A stretch of DNA of 64,000 bases, from positions 62,001-126,000 of the forward strand of contig JAKVPA010000007.1 of the NCBI GenBank assembly GCA_022482495.1, read 5' to 3'. Positions 48,329 to 59,780 of this stretch are shown in pieces (the first letter of the stretch is position 1; each line of letters begins with the position of its first letter). The position numbers and the translations under genes are program-made. The DNA comes from Sphaerochaeta sp. (GTDB lineage Bacteria > Spirochaetota > Spirochaetia > Sphaerochaetales > Sphaerochaetaceae). Under the pieces are notes generated by a model. The model was not told the origin of the DNA and did not search any database. It saw only the letters and a program-made list of their open reading frames with translations.

Positions 48329-48811
48329 ATGTACTGCAAAGTGACCGACCAGATGATCCACATCATGCGGATGATGGATGGGGAAAGCAAGAGACCGCAC
48401 GTCTATGGCGGCGTCTCGCTCTCCCTCTCGGAGATCACGTTTTTGGAGTCCGTCGTCCGGTACCCTGGAGAAAACGTCAGCGGCATCTCGCAGAAACTGG
48501 GCATCACCAAAGGAGCCGTCACCCAAATGGTCGGCAAACTGGATGGGAAACGGCTGATCAAAGTCCAGATGCGGGAAGACAACAAGAAAGAGAAATACCT
48601 GTATCCTACCGAAACGGGAACCAACGCACTGCGTGCCTACCAAGCGGACCACGAAGCGGCGAACCGGAAACTGTGCGCCTTCATCGGGAGTCTCAATCAG
48701 GAGGAAACCAGACTGGTGCACCGTTTTCTGGAATGCATACAGGAATGCGTGCCGTTTTCTGAATTTGAATGCATGCATGTACAGCGTGAAGCAGAAGGAA
48801 AAACAACATGA
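48329..48811 (+). CDS. MarR-family regulator with C-terminal cysteine cluster, probable suf regulator
   Basis: The 160-residue protein has the MarR winged helix (about residues 33-95): the recognition region is SGISQKLGITKGAVTQMVGKLDGKRLI and the wing is MREDNKKEKYLYPT. The C-terminal dimer helices carry five Cys in all with Cys3: Cys116, then Cys136, Cys140 and Cys148 in a CX3CX7C arrangement. Such a cluster is unusual in MarR proteins and could hold an Fe-S cluster. It overlaps sufC by ATGA and sits behind a promoter with a perfect inverted repeat, so self-regulation of the suf operon is likely. Confidence 0.85.
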   Translation: MYCKVTDQMIHIMRMMDGESKRPHVYGGVSLSLSEITFLESVVRYPGENVSGISQKLGITKGAVTQMVGKLDGKRLIKVQMREDNKKEKYLYPTETGTNALRAYQADHEAANRKLCAFIGSLNQEETRLVHRFLECIQECVPFSEFECMHVQREAEGKTT

Positions 48812-49566
48812 CAAACCAACCCTTATTGGATGTGCGCGGACTGCACGTCGCACTTGAGAATGGAGAAGAAATTCTTCGCGGGACGGACCTGAAGATCAAC
48901 CCCGGCGAAGTCCACGTCATCATGGGACCGAACGGATCGGGCAAATCCACGCTGGCCAACACCATCATGGGAAGCCCGGAATACCACGTCACGGCGGGAA
49001 CCATCGCCTTTGACGGACAGGACATCACCACCGCACCGGTCAACGAACGAGCCAAGAAAGGGCTGTTCATGGCCTTTCAGAGCCCGGAAGAGATCGACGG
49101 CGTTTCCGTCTCCGATTTCCTGCGGACGGCGAAGCTCGCCCGTGACGGCAAACCGGTGAAGATGCTGGAATGGAAAACCCAGGTGGATGACACGCTGAAA
49201 TCACTCGGCCTGGACGACACCTACGCCGACCGGGCGCTGAACGTCGGCTTCTCCGGCGGAGAAAAGAAGAAGAGTGAGATTCTCCAGATGTTGATGCTCC
49301 AGCCCAAACTGGCCATCCTGGATGAAACAGACTCCGGCTTGGACGTGGACGCCGTGCGGATCGTCACCGACGGCATCCTTCGCTTCAAGACCAGCGAGAA
49401 CTCCCTTTTGATCATCTCCCACAGCACCCGGCTGTTGGAACGGCTCCCGGTGGACGCCGTGCATATCCTGTACAAAGGACGGTTCGTCCACAGCGGAGCG
49501 CGCAATCTGATCGACGAGGTGGAAGCCAATGGTTTCGCCAGCTTCATCGAAGAAGCAGAGAGGTGA
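48808..49566 (+). CDS. sufC: Fe-S cluster assembly ATPase SufC
   Basis: The 252-residue ABC-type ATPase has Walker A GPNGSGKST, the SufC signature FSGGEKKKSEILQM, Walker B LAILDETDSGLDVDA and the late ISHSTRLL switch. It drives the SufBCD scaffold. Length fits SufC. It overlaps the MarR-type gene by 4 bases and is followed 4 bases later by sufB. Confidence 0.96.
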   Translation: MTNQPLLDVRGLHVALENGEEILRGTDLKINPGEVHVIMGPNGSGKSTLANTIMGSPEYHVTAGTIAFDGQDITTAPVNERAKKGLFMAFQSPEEIDGVSVSDFLRTAKLARDGKPVKMLEWKTQVDDTLKSLGLDDTYADRALNVGFSGGEKKKSEILQMLMLQPKLAILDETDSGLDVDAVRIVTDGILRFKTSENSLLIISHSTRLLERLPVDAVHILYKGRFVHSGARNLIDEVEANGFASFIEEAER

Positions 49567-49570
49567 CACC

Positions 49571-50977
49571 GTGAACCGCAAAAAAACAGAGATCGGAGAA
49601 TTTGACCGGGGCATCTATGATGTCCGGGACAAGAACGACCCCCGCTACCAGGTGGCCCCGGGTCTGACGGAAGACATTGTCCGCAAGATATCGGAGGGAC
49701 AGCACGAACCGCAGTGGATGCTGGACCTGCGCCTGCAGAGCCTGAAGGATTTCAACCGGATTCCCCTTCCCACCTGGGGACCGTCCCTGGATGAGCTGGA
49801 CATGAACAACATCGTCACGTTCATTCTTCCCAAGACGAAGATGACCGACGACTGGAAGAAACTGCCTGACGACATCCGCAACACGTTCGACCGTCTGGGC
49901 ATCCCCAAGGCAGAACAGGACTACCTGGCCGGTGTGGGAGCCCAGTACGACTCCGAGGTGGTCTACCACCACATGAAAGCCAAGATGGAGAAGCTCGGGG
50001 TGGTCTACACCGACATGCAGACGGCCGTCCGGGAATATGAGGACCTGGTCAAACCCCGCTTCCTCAAACTTCTGCAACCCACCGAACACAAGTTCATGGC
50101 GTTGCACGGAGCCGTCTGGTCCGGAGGCTCGTTCGTCTATGTGCCGGACGGGGTGGAGGTGGACATGCCGTTGCAGTCCTACTTCCGTCTGAACGCCCCA
50201 GGCGCAGGACAGTTCGAGCACACGTTGATCATCCTTGGCAAGGGAGCCAAGCTCCACTTCATCGAAGGATGCTCCGCGCCGAAGTACAACGTGCTGAACC
50301 TCCACGCCGGATGCGTGGAACTGTACGTCGGCGAGGGCGCGACGCTGCGCTACTCCACCATCGAGAACTGGTCGAAGAACATGCTGAACCTGAACTCCAA
50401 ACGGGCCCAGGTGGAAAAGAACGGCACCATCCAGTGGGTTTCCGGCACGTTCGGCTCCCACATCACCATGCTGTACCCCAGCTCGGTGCTGAAGGGTGAA
50501 GGCGCCAGGAGCGAATACGTCGGCGTCAGCTTCGCCGGCACGAACCAATTCCTGGATACCGGTTCGAAGGTGATCCACGCCGCGCCGAACACCTTCTCCA
50601 CCATGTCCTCCAAGTCAATTTCCAAGGAGGGGGGAAACACGACGACGCGTACCTCCGTCACCGTGATGCCCCAGGCGAAAAACAGCAAGTCCAGCGTGAT
50701 CTGCGAATCGTTGATCCTGGACAGCAAGTCCCGCTCGGACACCGTACCTGCCATGGACATCCGCAACGACAAGGCGGACATCGGACACGAGGCGCGCATC
50801 GGACGCATCAGCGAGCAGTCCATCTACTATCTGATGACCCGCGGCCTGAGTGAGGAAGAGGCCAAAGCCTTGATCGTTCGGGGCTTCGTCGAACCGGTCA
50901 CCAAGGAACTGCCGCTGGAATACGCGGTGGAGATGAACCGCTTGATCGGACTGGAGCTGGAAGGCGCCATTGGATGA
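49571..50977 (+). CDS. sufB: Fe-S cluster assembly scaffold SufB
   Basis: The 468-residue product is the cluster-building subunit of SufBCD. Marks are the N-terminal DVRDKNDPRYQVAPGLTEDIVRKIS layout, HAAVWSGGSFVYVPDGV-type stretch (HGAVWSGGSFVYVP), the right-handed helix core with HFIEGCSAPKY, and the C-terminal DIGHEARIGRISEQ with the ligand Glu/His seen in SufB proteins. The start is GTG at 49571, with AGAGGTG upstream. It is followed by sufD after 9 bases. Confidence 0.96.
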   Translation: MNRKKTEIGEFDRGIYDVRDKNDPRYQVAPGLTEDIVRKISEGQHEPQWMLDLRLQSLKDFNRIPLPTWGPSLDELDMNNIVTFILPKTKMTDDWKKLPDDIRNTFDRLGIPKAEQDYLAGVGAQYDSEVVYHHMKAKMEKLGVVYTDMQTAVREYEDLVKPRFLKLLQPTEHKFMALHGAVWSGGSFVYVPDGVEVDMPLQSYFRLNAPGAGQFEHTLIILGKGAKLHFIEGCSAPKYNVLNLHAGCVELYVGEGATLRYSTIENWSKNMLNLNSKRAQVEKNGTIQWVSGTFGSHITMLYPSSVLKGEGARSEYVGVSFAGTNQFLDTGSKVIHAAPNTFSTMSSKSISKEGGNTTTRTSVTVMPQAKNSKSSVICESLILDSKSRSDTVPAMDIRNDKADIGHEARIGRISEQSIYYLMTRGLSEEEAKALIVRGFVEPVTKELPLEYAVEMNRLIGLELEGAIG

Positions 50978-50986
50978 GGAGTGAAT

Positions 50987-52066
50987 ATGAAACTCACACA
51001 ACTGAATGAACTGCAAATGCCCACGTGGCGCTGGCTTGGCATCAACGCCGCGGAACTGGATATCAATGAGCTTCCCGATGAACGATGGACAAAACCGGTC
51101 GTCTCCGACGCGCCCAAGGAAGTCATTCTCACCGAAGAACCGACCAGCGTGGAGCGTGAAGGATTACCCGTCGACATGGCACGCATCAGCCAGGTGGTGG
51201 CAAAGCACCACACCTATGCGCTGAAGGTCACCATCCCCGACCACACCACCCTGTCCAAACCACTTTTGCTGGACTTCCAGCTGGATGACGAGCATCCCCA
51301 GGTGGTGGAGTCGCTGACCATCCTGGCCGGGGAAGAGAGCCAGGGCGATGTCATCGTCCGCTACCACGCAAGCGGAAGCAAGGTTCACATCCATGGGGGC
51401 TTCACCTCCATGACCGTGAAGAAGAACGCTTCCCTCCGCCTGTTCAAGGTCCAGACGCTGGGCGGCAGGGACGCCCATCTGGACGGAACCGAAGCCACGG
51501 TGGAGGAAAACGGCAACGTGGAAGTGGTCTTCTGCGAACTGGGAACGGCAAAAACCGTCTCCGGCTGCAACTTCCTGCTCTCTGGAAGGAAGAGCGTCGG
51601 CACGATGCAGACGCTGTTTCTGGGAACCGGAACACGGCACCAGGACTTTGACGACAGGATCGAACTGCGCGGCAGAGACACCCAGGGGGCGATCATCGCC
51701 CGAGGCGCGCTGTCCGGCACGGCAAAGAAAGTGCTCCGCAGCACGTTGGATTTCATCCACGGCGCTGCGGGCTCCAAAGGGAGTGAACAGGAGACGGTGC
51801 TGACGCTGAGCGACAAGGCGGTGAACCTTTCCGCTCCATTGCTCCTCAGCGGGGAATCCAACGTGGAAGGATCCCACGCCGTCTCCAGCGGCAGTCCCAA
51901 TCCACAGAAGCTGTTCTATCTGATGAGCCGTGGCTTCTCCGAACTGGACGCGAAGCGGCTGCTGGTGGAGGCGTCCTTCGCCCCCATTCTGGCTGCGCTC
52001 CCGCTTCCGGAACTGAAGGAAACGGTCTCTCAAGCCATACGGGAGGCGGTGCACCATGCAAATTGA
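50987..52066 (+). CDS. sufD: Fe-S cluster assembly protein SufD
   Basis: The 359-residue product matches SufD, the partner of SufB. It has a beta-helix core and the C-terminal LLSGESNVEGSHAVSSGSPNPQKLFYLMSRGFSELDAKRLLVEASF region, the family hallmark. It is somewhat short for the family. ATG 50987 has GAGGAG at proper spacing, which favours it over the GTG two codons upstream. The end overlaps sufS by 11 bases. Confidence 0.92.
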   Translation: MKLTQLNELQMPTWRWLGINAAELDINELPDERWTKPVVSDAPKEVILTEEPTSVEREGLPVDMARISQVVAKHHTYALKVTIPDHTTLSKPLLLDFQLDDEHPQVVESLTILAGEESQGDVIVRYHASGSKVHIHGGFTSMTVKKNASLRLFKVQTLGGRDAHLDGTEATVEENGNVEVVFCELGTAKTVSGCNFLLSGRKSVGTMQTLFLGTGTRHQDFDDRIELRGRDTQGAIIARGALSGTAKKVLRSTLDFIHGAAGSKGSEQETVLTLSDKAVNLSAPLLLSGESNVEGSHAVSSGSPNPQKLFYLMSRGFSELDAKRLLVEASFAPILAALPLPELKETVSQAIREAVHHAN

Positions 52067-53276
52067 TTACAAACAGGATTTTCCCCTTCTGAACCAATTG
52101 GGGGAGGACGGACTTCCTCTTGCCTATCTTGACAACGCAGCGACAACGCAGAAGCCACAGGAAGTGATCGACGCCGTACGGAACTTCTACGAGACGTTCA
52201 ACGCCAACCCGCACCGTGGCTCGTACGCCATCAGCGAACAGGCGACGGAAACATTTGAGCAGGTACGGGAGAAGTTCGCCCGGTTCATCGGAGCGAAGGA
52301 CAGCAGCGAGATCGTCTTCACCTCCGGCACGACGGACGCCATCAACACGGTGGCGTTGAGTTGGGGAAACGCCAACATCCATGCCGGGGACGAGATTCTG
52401 ATCTCCGTCCTGGAGCACCACAGCAACCTGCTTCCCTGGCAGCGGCTGGCCCATGAGAAAGGAGCGACGCTCGTCTACGTCGATCCCGATGAGAGCGGAT
52501 GCGTCAATCCCAACGATGTGGCGGCAAAACTGACCCCCAGGACCAAGCTGCTTGCCCTGACCCAGGTCTCCAACGTGCTGGGCGGCATCAATCCGATCAA
52601 GGAGATCACCAAGATCGCCCACAAGAACGGCACGTTGGTGCTGATGGATGCGGCGCAGAGCGCGCCCCACATCCCGGTGGACGTGACCGACCTGGACGTC
52701 GACTTCCTCGCCTGTTCCGGTCACAAGATGCTGGCTCCAGCCGGCATCGGGGTGCTGTACGGCAAGAAAGCGATCCTGGACGGCATGGAGCCGCTCAGGC
52801 TGGGTGGCGGCATCGTCGAGCAGGTGACCCAGCAGACGGTGAGTTTTCTGGACACCCCGTGGAAGTTCGAGGCGGGAACGCAGAACACCGAAGGGGTGGT
52901 CGGTCTGGGAGCCGCCATCGACTACCTTGAGAAACTGGGAATGGATACCATCCAGCAGAGGGAGAAACAGCTTACCGCGTACGCGTTGGGCAAGCTGGAA
53001 ACGATCCCCCACCTCCATCTGTACCACGCCAAAGAGGCGACCGGCATCATTTCGTTCAACGTGGAGGATGTCCATCCCCACGACACGGCGGAGGTGCTTG
53101 CCGCCCATGGGGTGGCGGTCCGCGCCGGCCACCATTGCGCCCAGCCGTTGATGGCCTACCTTGGCGTGCAGGCCACCTGTCGGATGAGCCTGTATTTCTA
53201 CAATACGGAACAGGACATCAACCGCCTGGTCGAAGCCCTGAAGACGGTGCGAGGAGTGCTTGGCTATGAATCTTAA
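52056..53276 (+). CDS. sufS: Cysteine desulfurase SufS
   Basis: The 406-residue PLP enzyme takes sulfur from cysteine for cluster assembly. Marks are YLDNAATTQKP, EHHSNLLPWQ (residues 120-129), DAAQSAPH, the PLP-binding Lys224 in CSGHKMLAP and the active Cys361 in RAGHHCAQP. These fit group II (SufS) desulfurases. GGGAGG precedes the ATG inside the end of sufD. The start of sufU overlaps its end by 11 bases. Confidence 0.96.
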   Translation: MQIDYKQDFPLLNQLGEDGLPLAYLDNAATTQKPQEVIDAVRNFYETFNANPHRGSYAISEQATETFEQVREKFARFIGAKDSSEIVFTSGTTDAINTVALSWGNANIHAGDEILISVLEHHSNLLPWQRLAHEKGATLVYVDPDESGCVNPNDVAAKLTPRTKLLALTQVSNVLGGINPIKEITKIAHKNGTLVLMDAAQSAPHIPVDVTDLDVDFLACSGHKMLAPAGIGVLYGKKAILDGMEPLRLGGGIVEQVTQQTVSFLDTPWKFEAGTQNTEGVVGLGAAIDYLEKLGMDTIQQREKQLTAYALGKLETIPHLHLYHAKEATGIISFNVEDVHPHDTAEVLAAHGVAVRAGHHCAQPLMAYLGVQATCRMSLYFYNTEQDINRLVEALKTVRGVLGYES

Positions 53277-53706
53277 CGAAGTCTATTCGGAAGTGATCAG
53301 GGAGCACAATCTCTCCCACCACAACAAACATCCGCTGGAACAGCCCACGGTGGAGGTCCCCGGCAGGAACCCCAGTTGCGGGGATGACATCCAGCTGTTC
53401 GTGAAGATGAAGGATGGCGTAATCGACGACGCATCGTACACCGGTTCGGGATGCGCCATCTCCCAGGCCTCCGTCTCCATCATGATCGACCTGGTGCGGG
53501 GAAAGACCATCAAAGAGGCGAAAGAGCTGTGCGACCTGTTCCTCAAGATGATACGCACCGGAGACCTTAGCACGGAAGAACAGAAGAAGATGGATGATGC
53601 CATGGCGCTGTCCAACGTATCCACCATGCCGGCCCGGGTCAAATGCGCCACCATGCCGTGGCACACGCTGCAGGCTGCGTTGGATGCGGTGGAAAAGCCT
53701 TCCTGA
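53266..53706 (+). CDS. sufU: Zinc-dependent sulfurtransferase SufU
   Basis: The 146-residue protein is the SufU partner that accepts sulfur from SufS. The zinc ligands are all present: Cys38 and Asp40 in PSCGDD, Cys63 in GSGCAIS and Cys127 in RVKCATM. The helical insert typical of SufU (and lacking in IscU) lies between them. ATG 53266 has GAGGAG upstream. This makes the operon a Gram-positive style sufCDSUB set in another order (C-B-D-S-U), with no sufA or sufE. Confidence 0.94.
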   Translation: MNLNEVYSEVIREHNLSHHNKHPLEQPTVEVPGRNPSCGDDIQLFVKMKDGVIDDASYTGSGCAISQASVSIMIDLVRGKTIKEAKELCDLFLKMIRTGDLSTEEQKKMDDAMALSNVSTMPARVKCATMPWHTLQAALDAVEKPS

Positions 53707-53905
53707 CAACAGGAAAAGAATATCACCTGTATCCTTATCTTTTCCACCCAAAATGTAACAGAGTGGTATATGAATTGATTTCTTCGTGAAAAACTCAGAA
53801 AACCATCCATCATGTGTGGTATTTTTTTTCGTTTCGATGTATGTTTTTTTTTATTTGAGTGATAAGGGAAACAATGTCCTTATGCTCCAGGAGGAATGAT
53901 TTAGT

Positions 53906-55219
53906 ATGAAAAAAAGTCAGAAACACATACTGACGGTTCTTTGCATCGCCAGCCTGTTCGCAGTTGTCCTGACCGGATGCTCCAAGAAGGAGGCCGCAAC
54001 CACTACCTCTGCTGCGCAGAGCACTACTACCACGACACAACAGGCGCCGGCAAAAGCCACGGCCGAAGTGAAGGTCACTGACCTGGCCGATGGTTTGTAC
54101 TATGCAGCGGGAGACGAGTTCGAGTCTTCCGGTTGGAAATCCGTCGTATTCCTGACCGTCAAAGGTGGAAAGATCACCGATGCCGATTGGAACGCGGTGA
54201 ACGTCAACGGCGGAGCCGATAAGAAAACGTATGATAAAGCCGGCAAATACCGGATGGTCGCCTATGGCAAAGCCCAGGCGGAGTGGTACCAGCAGGCTGA
54301 GAAAGTCGAGCAGTATTTGATCTCCACCCAGGATCCGACCAAGATCACCTACACCGATGGCGAGCATACCGATGCCATCAGCGGCGCGACGATTTCCGTC
54401 AATGATTTCTTCACGCTGGCCCAGAAAGCGCTGGCCAATGGTCCGGTCACTCCGGGCACCTGGCAGGACGGCACCTACTTTGCCATCTCTGACAGCTACG
54501 GTTCCAGCGGCTGGAAAGAGTATGTGTCCCTGAACGTCCTTCATGGCGTGATCGTGGGAGCCAACTGGAGCGCCATCAACCGTACCGGCGATGACAAGAA
54601 GCCGTACGACAAGGCGGGAAAGTATGGCATGATGGCCAAGAGCAAGGCCAAGGCGGAGTGGTACCAGCAGGCTGAGAAAGTCGAGCAGTATCTGATCTCC
54701 ACCCAGGATCCGACCAAGATCACCTACACCGATGGTGCCCATACCGATGCCATCAGCGGCGCTACGATCACCGTCAGCGAATTCTTCGAGCTGGCCCAGG
54801 AAGCGCTTGCCGCAGGCCCGATCGCCATTGGCCCGTACACCGACGGCGGCTACTACGCCCAGGCGGATGACTTTGGTTCCAGCGGCTGGAAGAGCTTCGT
54901 TTCCTTGCTGGTCAGAAACGGCAACATCGTCAACGTCTACTGGTCCGGTTGGAACAAAGACGGTTCGATCACCGAAGACAAGCAGACCTATGCCGCCGCA
55001 GGCAAGTACAACATGAAGGCTGCCGGCGCCATCGCCGAATGGGATGTCCAGGCACAGGCCGCCGAGCAGTACCTGCTGAAGACCCAAGACCTCTCCACCA
55101 TCGTGCTGAAGGACAACGGCCACAGCGATTCGATCTCCGGAGCAACCATCTCCGTCAGCGACTTCGTCAAGCTGGCCCAGGCTGCCTTGGACGCCGGTGT
55201 CATTAAGTACACCAAATAA
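53906..55219 (+). CDS. Lipoprotein with three FMN-binding domains, predicted triple flavinylation
   Basis: The 437-residue product has a lipoprotein signal (VVLTGC, Cys25), a Thr/Ser/Ala linker (about 28-52) and three repeats of about 125 residues. Each starts DGxYxA and includes a GSSGW- or ESSGW-like turn, and each ends D(A/S)ISGATI(S/T). That last motif is the ApbE flavinylation site, where FMN is joined to the Thr, so Thr162, Thr287 and Thr414 are the expected sites. Repeats 1 and 2 are closest. The build recalls PplA, the extracellular electron-transfer flavolipoprotein of Listeria. CCAGGAGGAATG precedes the ATG. No apbE is in the window. Confidence 0.85.
   Translation: MKKSQKHILTVLCIASLFAVVLTGCSKKEAATTTSAAQSTTTTTQQAPAKATAEVKVTDLADGLYYAAGDEFESSGWKSVVFLTVKGGKITDADWNAVNVNGGADKKTYDKAGKYRMVAYGKAQAEWYQQAEKVEQYLISTQDPTKITYTDGEHTDAISGATISVNDFFTLAQKALANGPVTPGTWQDGTYFAISDSYGSSGWKEYVSLNVLHGVIVGANWSAINRTGDDKKPYDKAGKYGMMAKSKAKAEWYQQAEKVEQYLISTQDPTKITYTDGAHTDAISGATITVSEFFELAQEALAAGPIAIGPYTDGGYYAQADDFGSSGWKSFVSLLVRNGNIVNVYWSGWNKDGSITEDKQTYAAAGKYNMKAAGAIAEWDVQAQAAEQYLLKTQDLSTIVLKDNGHSDSISGATISVSDFVKLAQAALDAGVIKYTK
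54276..54360 (+). repeat. Direct repeat copy 1 inside the FMN-domain lipoprotein gene
   Basis: These 85 bases recur at 54651-54735 with a single visible difference (T versus C), 375 bases apart, which is exactly 125 codons. Codon usage is shared too, which points to a recent domain duplication or gene conversion. Confidence 0.85.
54651..54735 (+). repeat. Direct repeat copy 2 inside the FMN-domain lipoprotein gene
   Basis: Second copy of the 85-base repeat that begins at 54276. The third domain of the gene shows only protein-level similarity over the same stretch. Confidence 0.85.
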
Positions 55220-55241
55220 CGAGTACTCGTAGTCACAACAG

Positions 55242-55269
55242 AGCCGCCCTCATCGGGCGGCTTTCTTTT
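55242..55269 (+). terminator. Intrinsic terminator after the FMN-domain lipoprotein gene
   Basis: AGCCGCCC and GGGCGGCT form a perfect 8-bp stem with a TCATC loop, followed by TTCTTTT. Confidence 0.88.
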
Positions 55270-55315: not shown

Positions 55316-56935
55316 CTACGATCTCCTGTTCTTTTCTCCTTCGTTCACATCTCCGCACAAGGAATCTTTGGTACTTCTCTCGTTATCCTGAATACAATGG
55401 TGACAATCATCAAAAACGAATTCCTGTCTCGTATTCACTTCCCTCGGTTTGATACTGACATCGCTGAGTCGAAGACCATCAAGATGACGAAAGAAAATGC
55501 CATACGCAGGCACATCACCAAAAGCATTGCTTTCTGGATAATCATGAATGTTCTCATAGAGAGGATACCGTATATCAAGAATTTCACGATTCTGCCGATA
55601 TGTAGCATGAAATGATGAGATACAAACATCCTTTACCATTTGTGTATGCTGATGAGTGGAATAACCGGTTATGATGCAAGGTATCTCCATATTTACTGCA
55701 GAGATGTTTTCCAAACAGATATGTTCAACACTCCCTCCATCTTTTTTCAGGAGTGCGTCTTTTGCATTGGCAAAATCATATTTGTTTCGTTTGTTTATAC
55801 AAATAAACAAGGGACAAACAACATTATTCATTTGAATGTTCTTGCAATGCACGTTGCTTATTACAGCACCATCTGCAGATTCGATGGAAATTCCGCTGAC
55901 ACTTCCGGGATACAAATCAGGCATAAAGAAAGAGCAGTCCTTTACCGTTATATCATCAATATCGTAATAGGTTTCAGTTCCAATTTTGAATGCATTCATT
56001 ACCGTGCAAACCTTGCAATCCTCAAATGTAATGTGTCGCGTTCCACTCATTTTCAAAGGAGTATGGTCCGTCACGGCCAGCCCATCATGTCCCTGAAACA
56101 AAGGGGACTTCACACAAAGTCCGTCATCTGCGGTTGAGATGAAAACATGGGAGACGGTAACATCGGTACTCCCCATCACATCAATCCCATCAGTGTTGGC
56201 TACATGACGATTGTTATCAACAACGACGTCTCTCACGGTAACAAACATGGAACAATCAATAGAGACAGTCCAATCGAACGAATCTTTCATAAGAATATTC
56301 TCAACTCGGATGTTCCGGGAATCACGAAGCCATACGGTATATAAAGGTCGTTTGATATCTGGAGCGCCTGTATTCCACCTATCATCCGCATATCGGATCC
56401 GCTCCCTGTATGCAAAACGGATTGTGTCTTCCGGATACCCCAACGGCTCCAAAAGTCTCGGGGGAAGTTTGGTATATGCCAACGGTTCTCGTAATGGTTT
56501 CTTTCTGGGAAGATTTACAAAATACTCACCACTTCCATCAATAGTCCCACCCCCGGTTATCAAAACATTCTCCGCCTTGATGATCGAAATCATTGCTGTT
56601 GAAAACTGGCTAAGATCCCTTGATGCTTTTAACGTTGCATCTTTTGAGATGAATAAGGTGGTACCTGAAGAGATTTCCACACTCCCTACAAGATACGTCC
56701 CCCCCGTCACAAGGATAATCCCATTGGTCTCCTTCGCAGAGCGTGCTGCGTCTTGAAATGCTTGCGTAGAGAGTTCCTTCGTATTCGGTCGTGCACCAAA
56801 TCGTCGGATATCGTACACATTCTTCGCTGGAAGCGGCATGGCATGAACATATGCATCATAGGGAATATCATCGAGATAATCTCCTTGATAGATGACACCA
56901 TGCTCAGGATATGTAGGGACATCCCGGGAAGCCAT
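55316..56935 (-). CDS. Glycoside hydrolase family 28 (polygalacturonase-like)
   Basis: The product of about 539 residues is a right-handed beta-helix enzyme with the GH28 acid pairs NTDGID (residues 247-252) and ADD (269-271), after NVYDIRRFGARPN and TGGGTIDGSGEYF. It lacks a signal peptide, which suggests action on imported oligosaccharides such as pectin fragments. Its DNA is clearly poorer in G and C than the neighbours, a sign of transfer. The ATG at 56935 suits the AGGAG site better than the ATG at 56941. The broken gene upstream ends 5 bases before 56941, so both belonged to one unit. Confidence 0.82.
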   Translation of the reverse strand: MASRDVPTYPEHGVIYQGDYLDDIPYDAYVHAMPLPAKNVYDIRRFGARPNTKELSTQAFQDAARSAKETNGIILVTGGTYLVGSVEISSGTTLFISKDATLKASRDLSQFSTAMISIIKAENVLITGGGTIDGSGEYFVNLPRKKPLREPLAYTKLPPRLLEPLGYPEDTIRFAYRERIRYADDRWNTGAPDIKRPLYTVWLRDSRNIRVENILMKDSFDWTVSIDCSMFVTVRDVVVDNNRHVANTDGIDVMGSTDVTVSHVFISTADDGLCVKSPLFQGHDGLAVTDHTPLKMSGTRHITFEDCKVCTVMNAFKIGTETYYDIDDITVKDCSFFMPDLYPGSVSGISIESADGAVISNVHCKNIQMNNVVCPLFICINKRNKYDFANAKDALLKKDGGSVEHICLENISAVNMEIPCIITGYSTHQHTQMVKDVCISSFHATYRQNREILDIRYPLYENIHDYPESNAFGDVPAYGIFFRHLDGLRLSDVSIKPREVNTRQEFVFDDCHHCIQDNERSTKDSLCGDVNEGEKNRRS

Positions 56936-56945
56936 TTTCATACTC

Positions 56946-57590
56946 CTATCTGATTATCTGGGTCGCATCTGTAAAAGTTTGATACTTCAAGAATTGCTTT
57001 CCCTTCATGGATATCCACGAGGAAGCATATGCAGGCTCGAGGGATTGGAGTGAATCTCGGAACTGTTGAAATCCCCCATATTCCTTTTCATCCCCTGCAA
57101 CTACAACAAACGGAACCGTTTCAGCGATGTACCGGATTTCACAATGAAAGAGTCTATCATTATAAGGCGTTCTCGCTATGGGGCACCAAAAAGCAAAATA
57201 TCCCGTGTTTTTCCTACAATAAATCCATGGCCCATCGGAAAGAACTTCATCAAACCTTTCACTTGGCAAGTAAGCATGGACAAAATGAACAGGATAATTC
57301 TGGGGGATATGATAGATTCCAGCCAAGAGGGCCCCTTCTTGTTTCAATGCAGGGAAAACACCGTTACCATGCCAATACCCAGGCCGTAAACTTGAATCCT
57401 CACAGGTTGTTCCAGGATGATTCATAAAGAAAACAGCATCCGAGGAGAGTGCAACATACCACAAATGTTGTTGGTATCCATAACAACCACTTTGAAAACT
57501 CTTCTGAGCCCTATTACCGCAATATGTTTAGACTCATTGTCCCCTACATCGGCATCGATGAAAAGAATTGAAATTCAATGTTTTACCCAA
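56946..57590 (-). pseudogene. Remnant of a polysaccharide-utilisation protein (C-terminal part)
   Basis: The minus strand encodes an intact last 190 or so residues (to 57527) with GYQQHLWYVAL, FMNHPGT, SLRPGYWHGNG and WIYCRKNTGYFAFWCP. These resemble the C-terminal region of large sugar-lyase or glycosidase-associated proteins, but I cannot name the family firmly. Another frame continues upstream (FIDADVGDNESKHIAV) to about 57590, after which no coding continues. The 5' part of the gene is absent, so it is truncated as well as frameshifted. It shares the low GC of the adjoining GH28 gene. Confidence 0.55.
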
Positions 57591-57699
57591 CTACCCGAAT
57601 TTGAAGGAACCAAATACACCTTTTCGAAAAAGCTAAGGTTTTTCTCAAATCTCCTATGGTTGATTTTGCCTATATCAGACCGAGGAATCATCCCTTTCC

Positions 57700-57728
57700 T
57701 TGCCACACCCCCCTCTCCTCGCTATGAT
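57700..57728 (+). promoter_or_regulatory. Promoter of the amino-acid permease gene
   Basis: TTGCCA is followed after 17 bases by TATGAT. Transcription would start about 12 bases before the ATG, just ahead of the GAGGAG ribosome site. Confidence 0.7.
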
Positions 57729-57746
57729 ACTCCCAGAGGAGTGAAG

Positions 57747-59079
57747 ATGCGTAGCACAGACGGCAAGCTCGGGCTTTTTGACAGTGTGCACCTGTTGGTC
57801 GGCGCCATGATCGGATCGGCGATCTTTTCCCTTTCCGGCATCACCATCCTGCAGGCCGGCCCCGCCTCAATCCTTTCCTGGATCCTTGGTGGCGTCATTC
57901 TGCTTGCCTACGGCCTGCAGACAGCGGAGTTGGCCTCACGATATCCCCAAAGCGGAGGCGTTTTTGCGTTTCCCGCCATTGTCCTTGGAAAAACCCGGGA
58001 GCAAGGCAGAGTCTGGGGATGGGTAAGCGCCTGGGCGTACCTGTTCGGATGCGTGGCCGGCGCAGCGTTCTCCGCCATTTACATCGGCATCTACCTCGGC
58101 GTGGCGTTCCCCCGCCTTGCCTCGCTACAGGTTCCCATCGCCATCATCTCCGTACTGCTCTGTGGCTACCTCAATATCGTCCGGTTCAAGATCACCAGCA
58201 GGGCGACGACGATCCTCACCGTATTCCTGGTGCTCGCCCTTTTGGTATTCTCCCTTTCCGTCTTTGTCAGCGGGAAATGGGACTCCACCCTTTTTGTTCC
58301 ATTCTTCACCCAAGGAAGCGGAGGAGCAACGGGATTTCTTGACGCGTTGCCGCTTGCCATGGTGGCCTATGGAGCCATCGTCTCCCTCTCCTTCCTGGTC
58401 GGGGAAGTCCACAACCCCGTACGGAACATCCCCCGGGCCATGACCATTGCCATGGTCATCGTCCTTGTCTTCTACCTGTCCGTCCTGGTCGCCACGTTGG
58501 GTGTCGTCTCGTCTTCCTACCTTGCCGACCATCCCGATCTCCAGTACACCCCGCTGTACGCGGCAGCGGCGCTGCTGCCCAGCCTGACCTTCCTGCCTCC
58601 GTTGATCTCCATCGCCGCCGTCCTGGCCTTGGTCACCACGATGATCGTCACCATGGCGCTGGCGTCCCATACGGTGTGCACCTGTTCGGAAAACGGGGTG
58701 CTCCCCGCAGTTCTCGGACGAACCACAACGAACGGGGTCCCTGTCGCCGCCACCATCATCATCACGGTGATCACCGCGATCTTCGCTGCCTTCCCCCAGT
58801 TGACGGACATTCTCATCAACTTCGGTGCGCTATGCAACGTCATCGTCGTCGCCATCGTCTGCATCACCGTCATGGCGTCGAGGAACCACCAACCTACCCT
58901 CTTGACGGATACGTTCCGTGCCCCAGGGGGTACCGCGCTTCCCATCATCACCCTTCTGGTTCTGGTCGCTTCCTACATTCCCAGCATTCTGCAGGGAGGA
59001 TGGAAACTCTGGGCCGTCACCGCCCTGTACTATGTGCTCGGAATGCTCCTGTACGGGAAAGCGGAGGCCTCTGTCATGA
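57747..59079 (+). CDS. APC-superfamily amino-acid permease
   Basis: The membrane protein of about 443 residues has 12 hydrophobic segments. It opens with GLFDSVHLLVGAMIGSAIFSLSG, carrying the GxxIGSGIF-like first-helix motif of the APC superfamily. Members import amino acids or exchange them for amines; substrate is unknown. ATG 57747 has GAGGAG upstream. As written, the frame runs on into the RibF-like gene. One extra G in GGCC at 59066-59069 would explain this: without it the permease ends in a TGA that overlaps the ribF ATG. I therefore place its end at 59079. Confidence 0.82.
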
Positions 59080-59780
59080 AAATCGCCTATGGCGTGTTCG
59101 ACGGGGTGCACCAGGGACACCAAGCGGTGCTCAAAGCACATCCCGATGTCGTCTACGTCCTGCCACCGGTAGGCAAGCCGGTGTTGACCACCAATGAAGA
59201 GAAACAAGAACTTCTTGCCACCTACGCCCCTTCACACTGCGACATCCGCTTCGTTTCCACGATTCCCTCGGGGGAACAGGACACCCCGATCTCCGTTTCT
59301 CCCGTCTTGTACGACGGACAGCCCATTACTTCAGAGCGCATCAAAGACGCCCTGAAAGACGGCAGAATGGAGGATGCCCTGGCAATGCTCGGACATCCCT
59401 ACACGATGCATGGCGTGGTCGTCTACGGCAAACAGCTGGGACGAACGGTGGGCATGCCCACCGTCAACCTGCAGTGCGCCCCGGAGAAGCTGGTCCCCTG
59501 CCATGGCGTCTATGGATCGGTCACCATCGTTGATGGCAAGCGATACCTCGGCGTGACCAGCATCGGGCTGCGCCCCACGGTGGACGACCGCCCGGACGTC
59601 ACCATCGAGACCTTCCTGATCCACTTCAACCAGGAACTGTACGGACAGCACATCGCCCTTGAAGTGGTCACCTACCTCAGACCGATCACCAAATTCCCCG
59701 ACCTCGCCGCCGTACGCCGCCAGGTGGATGATGATGTGCGCCTGTTCGTCCAGTACAACATCGAAAAGCATCTGATCTGA
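59076..59780 (+). CDS. ribF: Short RibF: riboflavin kinase with a reduced FAD synthetase domain
   Basis: The 234-residue product has the nucleotidyltransferase start YGVFDGVHQGHQ (HxGH-like site) and ITSERIKDAL, equal to the ISSTRIREAL motif of RibF. The riboflavin kinase domain follows with GKQLGRTVGMPTVNL, GVYGSV and the ending LRPITKFPDLAAVRRQVDDD. It makes FMN and perhaps FAD. The synthetase half is about 70 residues shorter than usual, so adenylation may be lost. GCGGAGG lies 8 bases before the ATG at 59076, which supports a separate start rather than a fusion with the permease. Confidence 0.83.
   Translation: MKIAYGVFDGVHQGHQAVLKAHPDVVYVLPPVGKPVLTTNEEKQELLATYAPSHCDIRFVSTIPSGEQDTPISVSPVLYDGQPITSERIKDALKDGRMEDALAMLGHPYTMHGVVVYGKQLGRTVGMPTVNLQCAPEKLVPCHGVYGSVTIVDGKRYLGVTSIGLRPTVDDRPDVTIETFLIHFNQELYGQHIALEVVTYLRPITKFPDLAAVRRQVDDDVRLFVQYNIEKHLI

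Follow-up and report, generated by a model that had tools for sequence, protein, structure and literature searches.

A gene in a Sphaerochaeta genome encodes an exported lipoprotein of 437 amino acids with three tandem FMN-binding domains, each of which carries a canonical motif for covalent flavinylation by ApbE. In the overall view that we favor, to which we assign a probability of about 0.6, three FMN groups are attached by ApbE, the FAD required is provided by EetB, the Rnf complex is the most likely electron donor, and the acceptor is periplasmic or extracellular.

The gene was found in a 64,000-nucleotide stretch (hereafter the window) of contig C7 of a 2.25-Mb genome that is 95.8% complete. 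Its reading frame begins with ATG and has exactly the coordinates proposed from the letters alone (Table 1). A lipobox, LTGC, can be read directly in the sequence, in agreement with the sequence-only reading, and its Cys25 is invariant across 14 aligned orthologs. An intrinsic terminator follows the gene, which was missed by a simple scan and found by a second search scored by dG and z. At this terminator of its own, the transcript of the gene probably ends. A promoter scan gave no match, a result that says little for a spirochaete. Recent foreign acquisition is not supported by composition, since the GC content of the gene (0.55) is like that of its surroundings.

Table 1. Features of the 437-aa lipoprotein gene (positions in the window).
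Feature	Position	Strand	Basis
CDS of the 437-aa lipoprotein (P0001), three FMN-binding domains	53906..55219	+	Reading frame, Pfam, AlphaFold2 model
AGGAGG ribosome-binding site, 11 nt 5' of ATG	53889..53894	+	Direct sequence reading
Lipobox LTGC, lipidated (predicted) Cys25	53969..53980	+	Sequence
FMN-binding domain 1, residues about 60-181	54083..54448	+	Pfam, AlphaFold2, structure match
ApbE motif 1 DAISGAT, predicted FMN site Thr162	54371..54391	+	Sequence motif
FMN-binding domain 2, residues about 183-306	54452..54823	+	Pfam, AlphaFold2
ApbE motif 2 DAISGAT, predicted FMN site Thr287	54746..54766	+	Sequence motif
FMN-binding domain 3, residues about 308-431	54827..55198	+	Pfam, AlphaFold2, domain tree
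ApbE motif 3 DSISGAT, predicted FMN site Thr414	55127..55147	+	Sequence motif
Intrinsic terminator	55240..55269	+	dG -19.8, z -3.9

The Pfam model FMN_bind (PF04205) matches three stretches of the protein with a total of 59.8 bits (cut-off 22), and a genome-wide scan also picks up each of the three domains. The extended motifs read DAISGATIS at residue 156, DAISGATIT at 281, and DSISGATIS at 408, so that the motif threonines occupy precisely the positions named before. The earlier description of three tandem domains, each ending in its motif, held for the domains and the motifs but not for the ends, because a 13-residue helix comes after the motif. The protein thereby combines a lipobox with multiple D-x-x-[ST]-G-A-[ST] motifs located in FMN-binding domains, the combination that marks a multi-flavinylated ApbE substrate. 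In 20,000 shuffled sequences of the same composition, this motif occurred 0.009 times per protein on average and never in three copies, which rules out a chance origin of the three motifs. The group expected at each site is FMN (FAD minus AMP), corresponding to a mass gain of about +438 Da per site, and not the “FMN-AMP-derived” group that the sequence-only reading had suggested.

An AlphaFold2 model, built with an alignment of 14 orthologs, shows three well-defined domains with a mean pLDDT of 84 and values mostly of 90 or above for the domain residues. The best match among solved structures is 2kzx from Clostridium thermocellum (A3DHT5; Foldseek E 1.9e-10, 60% identity, Z 14.3), followed by 3o6u (Z 13.3). 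The former shares the DAISGATI motif and 61% identity with domain 1, but is a single domain solved by structural genomics, whereas three are present here. Weaker fold matches with lower Z were obtained for 8p2a (SaFMN3) and 8p2b (CbFMN4). At the nucleotide level, a tract within domain 1 (54278..54361, +) is nearly identical to domain 2 at 54653-54736. Since 87 of 90 nt are identical in the best 90-nt stretch, compared with 71% over the whole domain pair, gene conversion between the two domains is likely from the sequence.

The sequence-only reading had named a genome without ApbE as a finding that would refute it. A profile search identified exactly one apbE (C4:182746-183561, 276 bits), the product of which is itself a lipoprotein; its closest solved structure is 7esa (E 1.3e-49), which we take to be Listeria FmnB. 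The gene lies downstream of a BMP-type ABC transporter (L007:9037-13636, –) resembling putative vitamin B6 transporters, whose binding-protein frame appears to start without a signal peptide and which is a possible flavin importer. The genome also contains a complete rnfCDGEAB operon with the genes in that order. RnfG carries the motif DAVSGAS and stays below its NCBIfam cut-off, while its five operon neighbors score above theirs; the scan of the genome identified no FMN_bind proteins other than RnfG and the 437-aa lipoprotein. Adjacent eetA and eetB genes encode a NusG_II protein and a PF07456 protein, respectively. Listeria EetB is an FAD-binding protein on which both the export of FAD to the flavin transferase and the flavinylation of PplA depend (PMC9973259). 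EetB is a single protein of 355 aa here (L038:1462-2529, +) and is represented by two ORFs of 178 and 212 aa in clustered relatives; the second half of the 355-aa protein may be a fused FmnA-like (ECF-T) part. With ApbE and EetA/EetB, the genome has the parts to make and feed covalent flavoproteins, even though apbE, eetA, and eetB are on other contigs than the lipoprotein gene. Given the single apbE, rnfCDGEAB, and eetA-eetB, covalent flavinylation of the lipoprotein is thus likely as judged from sequence and model.

The search for partner genes proposed earlier was therefore successful for ApbE, Rnf, and EetA/EetB, but not for Ndh2. No match to the Ndh2 of extracellular electron transfer (EET) was obtained by sequence search in this 95.8%-complete genome, where an assembly gap is possible; the same query matches 37 of the 119 genomes of the family. 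TIGR03701, the UbiD-type menaquinone decarboxylase and the one model used in the quinone search, likewise gave no match in the genome. Based on these two results, the pathway of the relatives described below is not intact in this genome.

Orthologs of the lipoprotein are present in 35 of the 119 family genomes, and two congeneric genomes do not carry one. All carriers but the window genome also encode Ndh2 (34/35). In 31 of these 34 genomes, ndh2 and the lipoprotein gene are on one contig and only 0.4-4.2 kb apart; Ndh2 occurs in the absence of the lipoprotein in three additional genomes. The co-occurrence is highly significant (Fisher p 4e-25), a value that is overstated because related genomes are not independent, but the neighborhood recurs in eight genera. 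In seven other genera, the lipoprotein gene is located in or near a cluster encoding a prenyl synthase, Ndh2, ApbE, a membrane protein at the position of Listeria FmnA, EetB, and EetA. In the genus richest in Sphaerochaeta-like genomes, the lipoprotein gene and the ndh2 and prenyl synthase genes are oriented divergently, and apbE and eetAB are found at other sites. In one genus, the three-FMN gene has a neighbor (L042:9569-10369, –; also L051, L057, L059, and L062) that encodes a second lipoprotein; this 266-aa protein has a D-x-T-T-G-A-S motif, matches no Pfam or NCBIfam family, and is possibly a new ApbE substrate. For two-domain homologs in three Treponema/Gracilinema records, ndh2, apbE, and eetAB were not found within the fetched flanks. 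We found no description of an Ndh2-linked EET-like locus in Spirochaetota in the open-access literature searched.

This genomic context conservation is what one would expect if the lipoprotein served quinone-linked EET as in Listeria, in which a type II NADH dehydrogenase and a quinone would carry electrons from NADH to the lipoprotein, with Fe(III) or another external compound as the final acceptor. Some of the related loci add the futalosine-pathway menaquinone genes UbiD, UbiA, and UbiX. For the window genome, however, we regard this route as unlikely, because neither Ndh2 nor TIGR03701 was found although the Ndh2 query does find matches elsewhere in the family. The earlier proposal of extracellular or periplasmic electron transfer is hence strengthened by the relatives' locus with respect to electron transfer, while its extracellular route is unsupported, since two components of the pathway in the relatives, Ndh2 and the menaquinone decarboxylase, were not found here.

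No electron-transfer partner adjoins the gene in the window. It lies 200 bp past sufU and on the same strand as the sufCBDSU operon directly upstream (48808-53706, +), and a convergent GH28 gene follows downstream. Over the GH28 gene (55501-57000) the GC content drops to 0.43 compared with about 0.51-0.58 around it, which suggests a recent arrival of this stretch. Further downstream, a single open frame of 787 aa (57417-59780, +) contains both an amino acid permease (PF13520) and a riboflavin kinase (PF01687), with the FAD-synthetase half of RibF apparently shortened to about 75 residues; it is either a true fusion or a frameshift and bears on the FAD source of the organism.

A position behind Fe-S assembly genes would suit a protein with a protective or flavin-sink role in the periplasm, whose reduced flavins react with oxygen or reduce stressors near the membrane. 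Reduced SaFMN3 indeed consumes O2 (PMC10339131), and the two congeneric genomes lack both the lipoprotein gene and close relatives of this operon's SufS, harboring only distant ones (about 32%); suf and the flavoprotein may form a shared accessory region. Elsewhere, however, the orthologs go with electron-transfer genes, and we saw no suf genes in the neighbor lists of the related loci, so that a common function with suf was rejected and a protective role appears improbable to us. Still less probable is that the gene is a relic, an orphan left by the loss of an EET locus that is made and perhaps flavinylated without a present role. Its isolation, the failure to find Ndh2, and its absence from the two congeneric genomes would fit such a history, but the frame, the lipobox, and all three motifs are intact, the motifs are more canonical than those of the orthologs, and the GC content is not that of a deviating region.

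Sequence comparison of the family revealed how unusual these motifs are. Domains 1 and 2 lack a canonical D-x-x-[ST]-G-A-[ST] motif in every one of 27 further complete three-domain proteins, and domain 3 has it in only three of them; three canonical SGAT sites are found in the 437-aa lipoprotein alone. The usual forms are D-D-I-A-G-V-S and D-D-I-A-G-A-[ST], mostly IAGVS in domains 1 and 2, while Ser or Thr is kept at the acceptor position in all 27. In a Klebsiella test protein, flavinylation dropped to roughly half its level after an Ala-to-Val exchange, and Thr is a better acceptor than Ser (review PMC12052999). Loss of the enzyme does not explain this drift, since 114 of the 119 family genomes have an ApbE match. 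The canonical motif being lost at most ortholog sites, the prediction of three FMN groups cannot be transferred across the family, in which the flavins may be dispensable. By sequence, the lipoprotein studied here, which has SGAT at each of its three sites, is the family's strongest candidate for full flavinylation and not a typical member. In a tree of 54 relatives, it is placed on a long branch next to the other proteins with three domains, its exact position being weakly supported; the contig scan for relatives gave only spirochaete records, and the family was sampled on the spirochaete side. In a tree of single domains, domain 3 groups with domain 3 of the Sphaerochaetaceae (support 95/94), indicating from sequence that the three-domain layout is shared with this family and not a fresh duplication.

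Multi-domain FMN-binding proteins form a class that has already been described, comprising 2081 proteins from 1530 genomes (PMC8238504). The 437-aa lipoprotein belongs to the known multi-flavinylated PplA-like proteins, with PplA of Listeria monocytogenes as the closest functional model, and its classification as a PplA-like FMN-binding lipoprotein with three domains is supported by architecture and motifs. Both are lipoproteins with tandem FMN-binding domains and ApbE motifs, and both genomes encode ApbE and EetA/EetB. In contrast to PplA, which has two domains and a host that is not diderm, three domains and a diderm host are found here; unlike the Listeria gene, this one is located outside any EET locus and in a genome where Ndh2 was not found. 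The PplA equivalog model NF041941, which describes a two-domain protein, gives 114.5 bits against a cut-off of 325 bits. The three-domain lipoproteins of Sphaerochaeta and relatives are alike in architecture and length (51-60% identity), but sit with ndh2 and never have canonical motifs in domains 1 and 2 (n = 27 complete). SaFMN3 of Streptomyces azureus and CbFMN4 of a Clostridiaceae bacterium likewise have several tandem domains, and after co-expression with ApbE they bear three and four covalently bound FMN, respectively (PMC10339131); their domains are shorter, an N-terminal helix anchor takes the place of the lipobox, and identity in the structural match is 13%. RnfG and NqrC share the FMN_bind domain and the ApbE motif but are single-domain subunits of a membrane pump, and the lipoprotein scores only 29 bits with the RnfG model (cut-off 102).

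Returning to the reading that we favor, the exported lipoprotein would be held in the membrane via Cys25, and the single ApbE would place one FMN on each of the three motif threonines, using FAD exported by EetB. The three flavins could then act as a short redox chain. Electrons would enter it on the outer side of the cytoplasmic membrane, with the Rnf complex, acting through flavinylated RnfG/RnfD, as the most likely donor, and would leave it for a periplasmic or extracellular acceptor. Up to the assignment as a substrate of ApbE, this scheme draws on sequence and predicted structure; beyond it, we infer the flavinylation, the electron flow, the donor, and the final acceptor. The choice of donor follows from the gene content: with Ndh2 and the tested quinone gene missing and Rnf present, Rnf rather than Ndh2 and quinone is the likely source. 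Spirochaetes have two membranes, and ApbE acts in the periplasm. The surface location assumed in the sequence-only reading is unsupported, as a surface signal cannot be read from the sequence in a diderm host, and a periplasmic location is at least as likely. More speculatively, and with rather low confidence, a PplA-type carrier may have been freed from Ndh2 and quinones and re-wired to Rnf, giving a quinone-free path from ferredoxin through RnfG to a periplasmic or surface flavin chain, with the IAGVS motifs of the relatives reflecting a changed ApbE specificity or a partial loss of covalent flavin.

Flavin-based extracellular electron transfer has been described in Gram-positive bacteria. 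The same gene set, consisting of ndh2, a prenyl synthase gene, apbE, eetA, eetB, and a flavin lipoprotein gene, is now seen in two-membraned spirochaetes, which raises the question of the route across the periplasm and the outer membrane. Moreover, the family represents a natural series of motifs from canonical SGAT to IAGVS, with ApbE nearly always encoded in the genome, and thereby bears on the limits of ApbE recognition.
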